A stretch of 64,000 nt of DNA from Parasphingorhabdus flavimaris. GTDB lineage: Bacteria > Pseudomonadota > Alphaproteobacteria > Sphingomonadales > Sphingomonadaceae. Below are positions 7,710 to 10,943 of the stretch, piece after piece. The DNA lies in contig NZ_JABWMH010000002.1 of assembly GCF_013371215.1 (NCBI RefSeq), positions 558,001 through 622,000 of the forward strand. Reading direction: 5' to 3'. The notes beneath the pieces were generated by a model. It did not search any database and was not told where the DNA came from. It saw nothing but the letters and a program-made list of their open reading frames with translations. Position 1 is the first letter of the stretch. Each line of letters opens with the position of its first letter. Position numbers and translations under genes: made by a program.

Positions 7710-8072
7710 TTAATTATTATCGAAATCGCGGCGCGGTTTGCGGTCGCGGTCGGGTTTGCGCATCATCACGGACGGGCCTTCTTCATGCTCGTCAACGCGG
7801 ATGGTCAGAAAACGGATAACATCTTCGTTGATCCGGGTCTGGCGTTCCAGTTCCAGGACAACGTTGCCCGGTGCGTCGAGACGCAGCATGACATAATGTG
7901 CCTTGCGGTTCTTCTGGATCTTGTAGGCGAGCGTACGCAGGCCCCAGGTTTCGGTCAGTACGACCTTGCCTTCGTTGGATTCAACAATTTTGGTGGCTTC
8001 CTGCGCAAGAGCATCAACCTGAGACTGGCTCAGATCCTGCCGCGCAAGGAAGACATGCTCATACATTGGCAT
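7710..8072 (-). CDS. rpsF: 30S ribosomal protein bS6
   Basis: A 120-residue bS6. The ferredoxin-like core begins [15 protein letters not shown] and contains [21 protein letters not shown], the conserved bS18/rRNA contact strand. The tail after residue 100 ([18 protein letters not shown]) is short and basic. The start is placed at the first Met because GAAGGA lies just upstream on the minus strand. A second Met two codons later is possible. First gene of the rpsF-rpsR-rplI operon. Confidence 0.97.
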
Positions 8073-8331
8073 GCAATCATTCCTTCATTTACCGCCGATC
8101 GCTGACGCCGCACCATGCGAACGCCCCTCCGGCTTTCTTCTTTTTCCGGGTGAATCGGACAGGCCGGTTCACGCGGAAGCGGCGCCTATGGCGGAAATGG
8201 CGGGGGAATGCAAGGGAGAAGGAGGGGGCTGCAATGTCGGAAAAGCTAGGTTGCTCTTAAAGGCCGAAACTGGGTGGAAAGCGGTCGGACGGCTTTCAGG
8301 CTGCGGTCAGAAGAAAGCTGCCGTTGCCTGC

Positions 8332-8360
8332 TTGCCTGATGGTAACAGGCTCGCTATGTA
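8332..8360 (+). promoter_or_regulatory. Promoter of the trp leader/trpS2 transcript
   Basis: TTGCCT (8332-8337), a 17-base spacer and TATGTA (8355-8360) form a sigma-70-type promoter. A start seven bases after the -10 would fall on 8367, exactly the A of the leader-peptide ATG, so the transcript would be leaderless. The remaining 8073-8330 stretch holds only the rpsF upstream region, and I see no gene in it. Confidence 0.55.
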
Positions 8361-8366
8361 AGTCCT

Positions 8367-8417
8367 ATGACCTACCGGCTTTCGACCATCAATCAACTTT
8401 GGTGGCCCGCGACTTAA
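8367..8417 (+). CDS. trpL: trp leader peptide (16 residues, tandem Trp codons)
   Basis: The short frame MTYRLSTINQLWWPAT ends in TAA. It has two adjacent TGG codons (8400-8405) four codons before the stop, the hallmark of ribosome-mediated transcription attenuation by Trp-tRNA shortage. The second Trp codon through the stop overlaps the 5' side of a GC-rich hairpin at 8404-8425. No ribosome site precedes the ATG, but the promoter predicts an RNA that starts at the ATG, as described for trpL of Sinorhizobium meliloti. The next gene is an auxiliary tryptophanyl-tRNA synthetase 107 bases downstream. The regulatory role is inferred. The frame and codons are directly visible. Confidence 0.78.
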   Translation: MTYRLSTINQLWWPAT

Positions 8418-8502
8418 GCGCGGCCAGTCATATTTCTGTGACCTCATCCGCTGCTTTCGGCGGCTAGGATCATCAGCACTCCCATCCCGACGGCAGCAGT
8501 GG
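8404..8502 (+). promoter_or_regulatory. Putative attenuator with alternative RNA structures before trpS2
   Basis: Hairpin A: GG-C(bulge)-C-CGCG pairs with CGCGGCC at 8404-8425, overlapping the end of the leader peptide. Hairpin B: GCTGC TTTCG GCGGC at 8450-8464. Alternative pairing: CCGCTGCT (8448-8455) with AGCAGTGG (8495-8502), eight pairs with one G-U, which is incompatible with hairpin B. No long U-run follows, so the switch may be weakly terminating or may act on translation near the AGGAG at 8511. Confidence 0.5.
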
Positions 8503-8523
8503 CAACTTCTAGGAGAATTGTCC

Positions 8524-9534
8524 ATGCGACCTGTTTCACGTCCTGTAATCCTGACCGGCGACCGCACCACCGGTCCCCTGCACCTGGGACATTACATCGG
8601 CTCTCTGAAGAGTCGGGTAGAGTTGCAGCACACCCACAAGCAATATGTGCTTCTGGCCGACACCCAGGCGCTGACCGACAACGCCGATCATCCTGACAAG
8701 GTGCGTCGCAATGTCCTGGAGGTGGCGCTAGACTACCTAGCGGTCGGAATCGATCCAGCCCTGTCCACGATCTGTCTGCAATCGGCTTTGCCTGCTTTGG
8801 CGGAGTTGACCATGCTCTACCTGAATTTCGTCACGGTCGCGCGCCTCGAGCGCAATCCGACCATCAAGGAGGAGATACAGGCGAGAGGGTTTGGTCGCGA
8901 CATACCCGCCGGCTTTCTTTGTTATCCGGCAGCACAAGCTGCCGACATTACGGCGTTCAGAGCGACCGTGGTGCCGGTCGGTGAAGATCAGACGCCCCTG
9001 ATTGAGCAGACCAACGAGTTGGTTCGCCGTCTCAACCGACAAATCGGCCGGTCCGTGTTGCCAGAAGCACGCGCGATTACGCCGCTGATAGGGCGCCTTC
9101 CCGGCGTGGACGGCAGGGCGAAGATGAGCAAATCTCAAGGTAACGCTTTGCCCCTGTCGGCTAGCGACGATGAGATCGCGGCAGCCGTACAGCGCATGTA
9201 CACGGACCCCGATCATCTCCGTGCATCCGACCCAGGGCGCGTTGAGGGCAATGTCGTATTCACTTATCTCGACGCCTTTGACCCCGACCGTGAAGCTGTT
9301 GCCGAACTGAAGGCGCACTATCAAAAAGGAGGTCTTGGGGACATGGTTCTGAAGCAGCGCCTCACGATCATCCTCCAGGCCACCGTCGCTCCGATCCGTG
9401 AGCGGCGGGCTGCGTTAAGTCGGGATGTCGACACGATAATGGACATCTTGCGAACCGGCGTTCAGCGGGGCCGAGAGATCACCGAGCAGACTAAGGATGA
9501 AATCGTAGCAGGCCTTGGACTTTTTTCTCTTTGA
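8524..9534 (+). CDS. trpS2: Auxiliary tryptophanyl-tRNA synthetase
   Basis: A 336-residue class I synthetase that would attach Trp to tRNA-Trp. The ATP-binding HIGH-type motif is TGDRTTGPLHLGHYIGSL near the N-terminus and the KMSKS loop reads GRAKMSKSQGNALPL. Length is normal for TrpRS. ATG 8524 is chosen because AGGAG (8511-8515) lies eight bases upstream; the in-frame TTG at 8518 is too close. The GDRTTGPLHLGHY form resembles the auxiliary, indolmycin-tolerant TrpRS branch known from Streptomyces and some Firmicutes. That resistance role is an inference from sequence style plus the attenuator. It is a lone gene between core operons, so acquisition by transfer is plausible. The housekeeping trpS is not in this window. 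Confidence 0.88.
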   Translation: MRPVSRPVILTGDRTTGPLHLGHYIGSLKSRVELQHTHKQYVLLADTQALTDNADHPDKVRRNVLEVALDYLAVGIDPALSTICLQSALPALAELTMLYLNFVTVARLERNPTIKEEIQARGFGRDIPAGFLCYPAAQAADITAFRATVVPVGEDQTPLIEQTNELVRRLNRQIGRSVLPEARAITPLIGRLPGVDGRAKMSKSQGNALPLSASDDEIAAAVQRMYTDPDHLRASDPGRVEGNVVFTYLDAFDPDREAVAELKAHYQKGGLGDMVLKQRLTIILQATVAPIRERRAALSRDVDTIMDILRTGVQRGREITEQTKDEIVAGLGLFSL

Positions 9535-9665
9535 ACGCACGAAAATCGCATCCACTTTCGAGCGGACGCCAACACCTCAGGAGTGTCCGGAATTGGGGCG
9601 ATTGCAGAAGGGCAGGTAATATATCTCAAATGTCTCGTATTGCGCGGTTGGCGGACCTGCTCAAT

Positions 9666-10943
9666 TTACTTCTTCGGCCCCAGGAAGCCGAACATGTCGC
9701 CGCCGATCTTGCGCATCTGGATTTCTTCCGCGCCTTCGGTGATCCGGTAGCGGCGGTGGTGGCGGTAGATATGTTCGAACGGCTTGTGGCGCGAATAGCC
9801 CATGCCGCCGTGGACCTGCATCGCGCGATCGGCCGCGTCGCAGACCAGCCGGTTCGCGCGATAGTTGCACATGCTGACCTGGGCGGAGAGATATTTGGCG
9901 ACGTCGGGTTTCGGCATCGTGTCCATCTTGGCCGCCGTAGCGTAGATCAGCTGGCGAAGCATGGCGGCTTCCGTGTGCAGCTCGACCAGCGGAAACTGGA
10001 TTCCCTGGTTGACTGACAATGGCTTACCAAACGGTTTGCGCTCGCCGGCATATTTTACGGCTTCATCGATGCAATATTGCGCCGCGCCGAGCGACGAGGC
10101 TGCCTGGCGTATGCGGTTCTCATGCACAAAATGCTGGGCGCAGGCGAGACCCATCTCAAGATCGCCAAGCACTGCATCTGCCGGAATCCAGACATTTTTA
10201 TAGGAGCATTTCGGATGGTCTGTGGGCATGTTCAATGTCCACATATATTCGCCGATTTCAAAGCCCTTGGCATCCACCGGAACGATGAAGCAGCCGATTC
10301 CCCTTGCGTCGCCGTCCTTGCCGCTGTGCCGGGCAAAGGTCATCACGTGCGAAGCCTTGTGCAGGCCGGTGGTCCACATCTTGTTGCCGTTGATCAGCCA
10401 GCCATCGACCCCTTCGTGGGCGACGGGTATCGCGGTCGTGTCCATCCATGTCGCATCGGAACCGTGATCTTCTTCGGTCAGCCCGAAGCACCAGCCCATT
10501 TTCCCGGCCAGCATCTGTGGAATATATTCCTGTTTCTGCTGTTCGGTGCCAAAGTCGCGGAGCATGAGCGGCTGCACGAGATTACCGACGATGGAATTTT
10601 CATTCTGCAGATCATTGTGCAGACCCAGGCCCTTGTGGGCGAGATGCTCGCGAATCCGCGCCATTCCGAGATTGGTGCCGTTCTGGCCGCCAAATTCTTC
10701 GGGCAGGGCATAGCGATAATGGCCGGCGGCATCGGCAACCTGCCGCATCTCGACCAGCAGCGCCTCCCATTCTTCGGTCGGCAGTCCCTGGTTTTCCCAG
10801 TTGGTCCGCGCGTCTTCGCGGCGGTGATCGAAAAAGCGGATATTGTCGTCGCGCTGCTCGATCGGCTTGATCTCCCGTTCGATAAAGTCATCGAGGACAG
10901 CCAGATAATCTTCAATCACCTGCGGAATTTCGAAACTGGTCAT
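9666..10943 (-). CDS. Acyl-CoA dehydrogenase family protein
   Basis: A 425-residue flavoprotein of the acyl-CoA dehydrogenase family. It has the N-terminal helical domain, the FAD/substrate loop WCFGLTEEDHGSDATWMDTTA, the middle beta domain (WLINGNKMWTTG, NVWIPADAVLGD) and the C-terminal helical domain with QVHGGMGYSRHKPFEHIYRHHRRYRITEG. It resembles the dehydrogenase part of ACAD10/11-type enzymes. The start is taken at the ATG of the ATGA overlap with the upstream kinase-like gene (10940-10943), not the earlier in-frame codon at 10955. The 131 bases after it, up to trpS2, hold nothing recognisable. Confidence 0.9.
   Translation of the reverse strand: MTSFEIPQVIEDYLAVLDDFIEREIKPIEQRDDNIRFFDHRREDARTNWENQGLPTEEWEALLVEMRQVADAAGHYRYALPEEFGGQNGTNLGMARIREHLAHKGLGLHNDLQNENSIVGNLVQPLMLRDFGTEQQKQEYIPQMLAGKMGWCFGLTEEDHGSDATWMDTTAIPVAHEGVDGWLINGNKMWTTGLHKASHVMTFARHSGKDGDARGIGCFIVPVDAKGFEIGEYMWTLNMPTDHPKCSYKNVWIPADAVLGDLEMGLACAQHFVHENRIRQAASSLGAAQYCIDEAVKYAGERKPFGKPLSVNQGIQFPLVELHTEAAMLRQLIYATAAKMDTMPKPDVAKYLSAQVSMCNYRANRLVCDAADRAMQVHGGMGYSRHKPFEHIYRHHRRYRITEGAEEIQMRKIGGDMFGFLGPKK

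Follow-up and report, generated by a model that had tools for sequence, protein, structure and literature searches.

The locus analysed here raises the question whether a short reading frame with two Trp codons controls the tryptophanyl-tRNA synthetase (TrpRS) gene behind it and, if so, by what kind of RNA switch. The window, a 64 kb stretch of DNA from Parasphingorhabdus flavimaris, contains such a frame, with tandem TGG codons and a stop codon, ahead of a trpS-type gene, all at the places at which the original prediction had read them (8367-8417, 8400-8405 and 8524-9534). Comparison with related loci points to a ribosome-mediated attenuator that would sense uncharged tRNA-Trp and control an acquired second TrpRS, a reading to which we assign a probability of about three in four. 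The relevant features, all on the + strand, are:

8271-9618, +, stretch common to the window and a locus from a metagenome-assembled genome (MAG), L006, with 88.5% DNA identity (DNA match)
8332-8360, +, promoter-like site: TTGCCT (8332-8337), 17-nt spacer, TATGTA (8355-8360) (sequence and relatives)
8367-8417, +, leader ORF, MTYRLSTINQLWWPAT followed by a stop codon (sequence)
8400-8405, +, tandem Trp codons TGG TGG, presumed stall site (sequence)
8407-8424, +, segments A (8407-8411) and B (8419-8424), a hairpin whose loop holds the leader stop codon (covariation in relatives)
8427-8442, +, GTCA (8427-8430) and TGAC (8439-8442), inner part of a proposed B:C hairpin
8448-8455, +, segment C (CCGCTGCT), common partner of B, D and E
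8459-8464, +, segment D (GGCGGC), forms the C:D hairpin
8495-8502, +, segment E (AGCAGTGG), forms the long-range C:E helix, 8 bp in the window, and overlaps the base of the Shine-Dalgarno (SD) hairpin
8501-8523, +, imperfect hairpin enclosing the SD sequence AGGAG (8511-8515) (local folds)
8524-9534, +, trpS2, auxiliary TrpRS of the Deinococcus TrpRS II type, 336 aa (homology)

The Second trpS Gene and Its Probable Acquisition

A search of the genome yielded two trpS genes above the family cut-off, trpS2 and a housekeeping copy with GIQPTG and ADLHAIT motifs, in agreement with the proposal that the enzyme encoded in the window is auxiliary. The start codon of trpS2 is ATG 8524, with the SD sequence AGGAG at 8511-8515. 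Nearest among solved structures were those of Deinococcus radiodurans TrpRS II (PDB 1yi8 and 2a4m, E 1.7e-115). In the five structure alignments shown, TrpRS2 and TrpRS II had Gln (ADTQALT) at a position where the other three TrpRS had His (DYHALT, ADWHALT and ADLHTLT). Judging by the motif, this column is presumably that of His43 of Bacillus TrpRS. The H43N substitution is reported, in the excerpt of PMC4899734, to confer indolmycin resistance. Gln occupied the presumed His43 position in all readable leader-bearing relatives (32 of 32, out of 35) and also in all readable Acinetobacter enzymes (28 of 28, out of 31), while this position was readable in 0 of 11 Cupriavidus proteins. In these alignments the His-to-Gln change is a subfamily trait and by itself no evidence of resistance. 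The proposed comparison with indolmycin-resistant active sites did reveal a replacement at the presumed residue, but one that Acinetobacter enzymes share.

Within the first 16 kb of the window, the stretch 8271-9618 was all that matched L006. Eleven same-genus loci aligned with the window up to approximately 8147-8216; in two of these the match resumed from approximately 9684-9690, and the others ended earlier or did not reach that far. Because of the isolated match to L006 and the same-genus matches that stop upstream of it, promoter, leader and trpS2 look like a single acquired, transferable cassette. Relatives of trpS2 at E 1e-80 or better were found in 3 of 397 genomes of the window's family, the window's own included; that sample contained nine genomes of the same genus, all of which lacked such a relative. 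The viral contigs searched contained no TrpRS2 relative and 18 records of a phage collection matched at E 1e-30 with at most 70.7% identity; on these grounds, a viral or phage origin was rejected. The contig of L006 is labelled Hyphomicrobiales and its TrpRS2 is 93% identical, which may reflect either recent transfer or misbinning.

Conservation of the Leader and Its Predicted Transcript Start

Upstream regions (400 nt) of the best 80 of at least 250 confirmed relatives were surveyed for a short frame with tandem Trp codons (WW). Such a frame was present in 35 of the 80 loci: 34 of 37 outside Cupriavidus and Acinetobacter, 1 of 12 in Cupriavidus and 0 of 31 in Acinetobacter. In 36 sequences, window included, the leader stop codon lay 12 or 15 nt past the first base of the Trp pair and 105-126 nt before the trpS start, save for L082 (146 nt) and L041 (187 nt). 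The WW leader, which usually ends about 100-125 nt before trpS, extends across three proteobacterial classes (alpha, beta and gamma) and to a Deinococcus plasmid. An alignment of 34 rows, from which L041 and L082 were excluded, had an invariant TGG TGG, its rows having been selected for that pair. TGGTGG by itself is common, with 12 occurrences on the + strand of the window, so that it is conservation in relatives which argues that the leader is more than chance. Relatives that share trpS2 kept the WW leader, as the original prediction had anticipated; with a conserved leader and two trpS genes in the genome, neither of the outcomes that it had named as counting against it was found. In L013 (5845-5985) the leader stop codon is altered and the WW frame reads on, with the hairpin there retained. 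Single-Trp leaders precede TrpRS2-type genes in L086 (near 1640, - strand; FYWPSP) and in the Acetobacter locus L130 (upstream of 2489; SVWPRA).

A plasmid collection, some of whose records are chromosome-sized, held 89 records with a relative at E 1e-80 or better; 19 loci, fetched from 60 listed, were inspected. Fifteen of these had a WW leader, the Acetobacter locus a single Trp codon, and three had no such leader. The WW-leader records included ones from Klebsiella, E. coli, Salmonella, Proteus, Vibrio, Photobacterium, Variovorax, Burkholderia, Rhizobium, Agrobacterium, Methylocystis, Roseibium, Bosea and Deinococcus. The Klebsiella, E. coli and Salmonella plasmid records with TrpS2 and a WW leader were L116, L117, L127 and L129. 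DNA of the pKTa005_5-like gene, at a query cover of at least 80%, occurred in 2 of 5426 E. coli genomes, on plasmids in both; a third match was dismissed as an IS fragment.

A good promoter had been claimed ahead of the leader. A sigma-70 consensus scan of 8000-9900 called no promoter, whereas the TTGCCT/TATGTA site is promoter-like and lies at a position kept in relatives. In 52 of 61 leaders, TTG started 33-37 nt ahead of the ATG (mean 5.2 and maximum 12 in shuffles; L126, with a GTG start, was excluded). Further counts were made on a wider set of 62 loci, which excludes L041, L013 (leader stop lost), L042, L086, L105, L108 and L110. In this set, a hexamer resembling the -10 box at 4 or more of its 6 positions lay 3-14 nt upstream of the leader in 30 loci (mean 12.0 and maximum 20 in shuffles), and the best -10-like hexamer was placed 6 nt upstream, the gap between TATGTA and the leader AUG in the window, in 30 of 62. 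An SD-like motif upstream of the leader ORF was seen in just 4 of the 62 loci. These spacings suggest that the leader mRNA is probably leaderless. In the excerpt of PMC7298713, the trpL transcript of Sinorhizobium meliloti begins at its own AUG, which provides a precedent for a leaderless leader mRNA.

RNA Helices and Covariation

Rfam gave no match near threshold for 8000-10000 of the window, and a scan of 11 relatives matched only an unrelated fluoride riboswitch (RF01734, at 2168-2230 of locus L037). Two alternative pairings, 8448-8455 with 8459-8464 (C:D) or with 8495-8502 (C:E), had been proposed, and both proved to be real candidates. RNAalifold, applied to the 34 relatives, picked A:B and C:E unprompted. 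Beyond the helices listed originally, the comparison added the A:B stop-codon hairpin, whose register in the window is shifted by one nt relative to relatives, the B:C pairing and the SD hairpin.

For A:B and C:E together, 92.9% of cells in the 34 sequences were paired, against 84.7% in shuffles and at most 62.5% when the helices were slid out of register. Thirty-nine cells were changed on both sides, against 11.0 in shuffled alignments, none of 500 of which scored as high. A weaker measure, the number of pairs with two-sided change, gave 8 against 5.9, with 24 of 500 shuffles as high. Across the 62 wider loci, the own C:E helix scored 24.5, compared to 19.0 for swapped and 13.4 for shuffled partners; the own score exceeded the swap mean in 56 loci and the 95% level of the shuffles in 54, so that 6 to 8 of the 62 loci failed these tests. 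This set includes Vibrio-type loci, in which the sequences of C and E differ greatly from the others (GCTGCTGGA with TCCAGTAGC). The end of the C:E helix lay 15-31 nt upstream of the start codon in 61 of 62 loci.

The pairs of B:C hardly vary, so that covariation is uninformative on this helix. Visual inspection of alphaproteobacterial loci showed its inner GTCA/TGAC part, which also formed in some of the constrained folds. C:D is partly misaligned in the 34-row alignment and was judged by inspection only. In Rhizobium, B can also be seen to pair with the SD arm (GGAGC:GGCTCC); this helix was dropped, as by eye it was absent from the window's group. Judged by these comparisons, the locus has two features expected of a ribosome-mediated attenuator: a short leader ORF with Trp codons upstream of a related gene and, downstream of those codons, mutually exclusive helices with covariation for A:B and C:E.

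Leader Presence and trpS Copy Number

The number of trpS genes was tested in 50 of the best 80 genomes. A second trpS above the cut-off was present in 33 of 33 genomes with a WW leader (L013 counted as leader-bearing). Among 16 leaderless genomes, 14 held this trpS alone (10 Cupriavidus and 4 Acinetobacter, one of the latter with a further trpS match below the cut-off); the exceptions with two trpS were L042, which has the element without WW, and L045, which has no element. L057, which starts at the trpS gene, was left unjudged. The association of leader and second trpS had a Fisher p of 2e-10, uncorrected for kinship among rows that are related.

The Cupriavidus loci with the auxiliary-type TrpRS alone and no leader (L017-L020, L023, L025, L026, L030, L047 and L076) look as if this enzyme has replaced the ancestral one. 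In a protein tree, from which L113, L132 and L133 are absent and whose root is unsure, six leaderless Cupriavidus rows had leader-bearing C. basilensis as their supported neighbour, followed by Paraburkholderia. In our reading, the switch was lost once the spare enzyme had become the sole TrpRS.

Genes Behind the Element in Other Genomes

Searches with a covariance model of the element (R1) gave matches in 6 of 385 genomes of the class and 15 of 398 of the phylum, the window's own being counted in both. These corresponded to 19 distinct loci, since two genomes, in addition to the window's, belong to both samples; L110 and L114 were the two loci not in front of trpS. In the window's family, 22 of 397 genomes had an R1 match with E no higher than 0.05. 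By eye, four matches (L151-L154, E 0.016-0.037) were judged false, three preceded trpS2 and 15 preceded something else. Twelve of the 15 (L114, L138, L139, L141 and L143-L150, near 1500) had a Tyr-Trp leader ending in YWRSF, YWRSFT, YWRFL or YWLSF. The frame directly after this leader encoded a GNAT acetyltransferase in 11 of the 12 (in L150 by Pfam); the frame of L145 is divergent and shares the CRIAPL start and RIDVC end, with its GNAT assignment unconfirmed. Relatives of the L141 GNAT at E 1e-25 or better were found in 10 of 337 family genomes, in all 10 with the element just upstream. The best-named relatives of these acetyltransferases were RimJ and RimL, at scores far below their cut-offs. 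In the excerpt of PMC3817062, RimL and MccE are said to acetylate, and thereby inactivate, a broad range of aminoacyl adenylates.

The presence of the element ahead of GNAT and other genes suggests, from sequence context, a charging-responsive set of defence or supply genes. In its widest form, the idea would be that Trp-tRNA charging is sensed by one mobile switch, composed of a leaderless leader ORF and an RNA of six segments, which commands scattered defences against TrpRS inhibitors: a tolerant spare TrpRS in some bacteria and, for the family of the window, inactivation of aminoacyl-adenylate mimics by a RimL-like acetyltransferase. Such a switch would convert between transcriptional and translational output and be discarded when the spare becomes the only TrpRS. 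We regard this generalization as doubtful. Locus L142 (1500-2249) carries the element, with leader MTGTSNPLCMNYWRSF and a stop codon, before an isochorismatase-domain hydrolase related to PhzD. In L110 (1501-2339) a WWRFQ leader and the element precede trpG by approximately 110 nt. L137 and L140 have elements near 1500, behind which no nameable gene was found.

Output and Proposed Switch

After C:D the window has no T-run, with at most 2 T in 8, and 8000-9900 contained no terminator-like site on the + strand. A classical intrinsic terminator (GC hairpin plus T-run) thus appears absent from the window and present in some relatives: T-runs followed C:D in L090 and L091 (7 T in 8), in Roseibium and Bosea (6 in 8) and in two of four enteric loci (L116 and L129), and a five-T run was seen by eye in the Deinococcus locus, in which the script counted 4 in 8. 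A loose test (5 T in 8) was passed by 15 of 62 loci and failed by 47, the window among them. As no T-run follows C:D in the window, translation is a plausible output there. In local folds, the SD sequence was paired at P >0.5 in 51 of 62 loci (mean 0.76), with E bases used in 60 of 62; in shuffled, composition-matched controls this was 69% (mean 0.62). SD pairing little above the controls gives modest support to translational output, and in the window the SD hairpin is weak (paired with P = 0.38). Taken together, output would be terminator-like in some relatives and more likely translational in the window.

A:B, B:C and C:D follow one another as in a classical attenuator. With ample Trp-tRNA, the ribosome would complete the leader, A:B and C:D would form and the gene would be off, by termination where a T-run exists and elsewhere through a free E that helps to close the SD hairpin. 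Under Trp-tRNA shortage, it is on the Trp pair that the ribosome would stall, covering A; B, once freed, would pair with C and thereby block C:D. The loop half of C would remain open as a foothold for E, an argument from kinetics, and C:E would then draw bases from the SD hairpin and open the ribosome site. Stalling, formation of B:C, the identity of the ON state and induction are steps that we infer. Folding with and without a stalled ribosome, the check that had been suggested for the attenuator, did not reproduce the switch: in equilibrium folds with the ribosome masked, SD opening was barely changed in nearly all 36 sequences, so that the switch would have to be kinetic. In soft-constrained folds with a stalled ribosome, C:E left the SD more open than C:D did in 25 of 34 sequences and less open in 6; with a free ribosome it was more open in 23 of 34 and 5 were opposite. 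The window was among the opposite cases (SD opening 0.25 with C:E, 0.62 with C:D).

Alternatives to this scheme concern both the role of C:E and the state of the leader. Attenuation might be purely transcriptional, with C:D halting transcription, intrinsically or aided by Rho, unless B:C forms, and with C:E and the SD hairpin as side features. The classical 1:2/2:3/3:4 layout, the T-runs of several relatives and an SD pairing close to that of controls fit this version. However, most loci, including the window, fail even the loose T test, and C:E is conserved, covaries and adjoins the ribosome site; we consider purely transcriptional control possible and rather less probable than not. A different assignment makes C:E the OFF state, clamping the initiation region, with B:C alone activating by removing C from E. 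Its stall logic is the simplest, as a stall frees B, B takes C and C:E is lost, and in the window the SD is indeed less open with C:E than with B:C (0.25 vs 0.63). Across relatives the balance is reversed, C:E leaving the SD more open than B:C does in 27 of 34 sequences and less open in 4, and in the Vibrio plasmid locus and four relatives E shares, by eye, 2-3 bases with the six-base SD complement (ATCTCC:GGAGAT); C:E as OFF state is in our view unlikely. Least probable, and improbable outright, is a leader that arrived as part of the copied cassette and has lost its function in the organism of the window. Cassette-like transfer, the weak SD hairpin and the missing T-run would suit such a relic, but leader, stop-codon hairpin and the C:D and C:E candidates are kept in both the window and L006 despite base differences.

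The function of the enzyme is a separate matter from that of the attenuator. TrpRS2 could have another job, such as protection from TrpRS-inactivating HipA-type kinases or growth at low Trp, with inhibitor tolerance being incidental. Caulobacter HipA2 phosphorylates TrpS according to the excerpt of PMC8545095, and a Salmonella gene that bears the name trpS2, and may or may not be of this type, was twofold up together with trp genes in biofilm in that of PMC2805695. The Gln shared with the Acinetobacter enzymes points the same way, as each of the 4 Acinetobacter genomes tested has this enzyme as its only trpS. Nothing speaks directly against this other role; the RimL-like GNAT behind the same element would fit inhibitor defence better, and we hold the other role to be a real possibility, with the odds somewhat against it. 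PMC8545095 was rejected as a paper on 'trpS2' itself, since in its excerpt the string seemingly belongs to a mutant name, TrpS210A.

Relation to Known Systems

Control of an auxiliary TrpRS gene by ribosome-mediated attenuation has reportedly been described in Streptomyces by Vecchione and Sello (2009 and 2010), as transcriptional attenuation by title. The candidate attenuator in the window resembles that system in its second TrpRS gene and in the proposed ribosome-mediated control. Unlike it, as far as the title goes, the window has no T-run and has a conserved C:E helix at the ribosome site; the original prediction, in which the two were exactly of a kind, therefore went too far. D. radiodurans TrpRS II, the closest solved protein relative, is likewise an auxiliary enzyme, known for its link to nitric oxide synthase (PMC9437257, excerpt). 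S. meliloti trpL shares with the window an alphaproteobacterial leader ORF, consecutive Trp codons and an mRNA that starts (in the window, probably) at the AUG; in contrast, it controls trpE(G) by transcription termination, and the excerpt of PMC7298713 describes no C:E or SD layer. The element uORFC-8-2 upstream of Rhodobacterales cysS is similar in that tandem cognate codons precede an alphaproteobacterial synthetase gene and differs in its Cys codons, its target cysS and, in the excerpt of PMC8632094, its description as transcriptional read-through.

Attenuators have been predicted upstream of trpS in some Streptomyces (PMC1262725, excerpt). Because of these and the cysS leader element, the kind of attenuator is already known, and the variant before proteobacterial trpS seems new: a search of the open literature, with subscription papers outside its scope and sources seen in excerpt, gave no report of the element before a proteobacterial trpS. 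If correct, our reading would account for the way in which many Proteobacteria hold a costly spare TrpRS in silent reserve until the first one fails. It would also allow prediction of the bacteria that can respond to TrpRS-directed antibiotics through induction instead of mutation. The element may serve as a search handle, by which genes behind it, for example GNAT, become candidates for synthetase-inhibitor defence. It would also offer a natural series in which one sensor seems to alternate between stopping transcription and blocking translation. A small plasmid labelled 'Streptomyces griseorubiginosus' (L134) has a region upstream of trpS that is nearly like that of a Staphylococcus epidermidis plasmid (L118), possibly through contamination.
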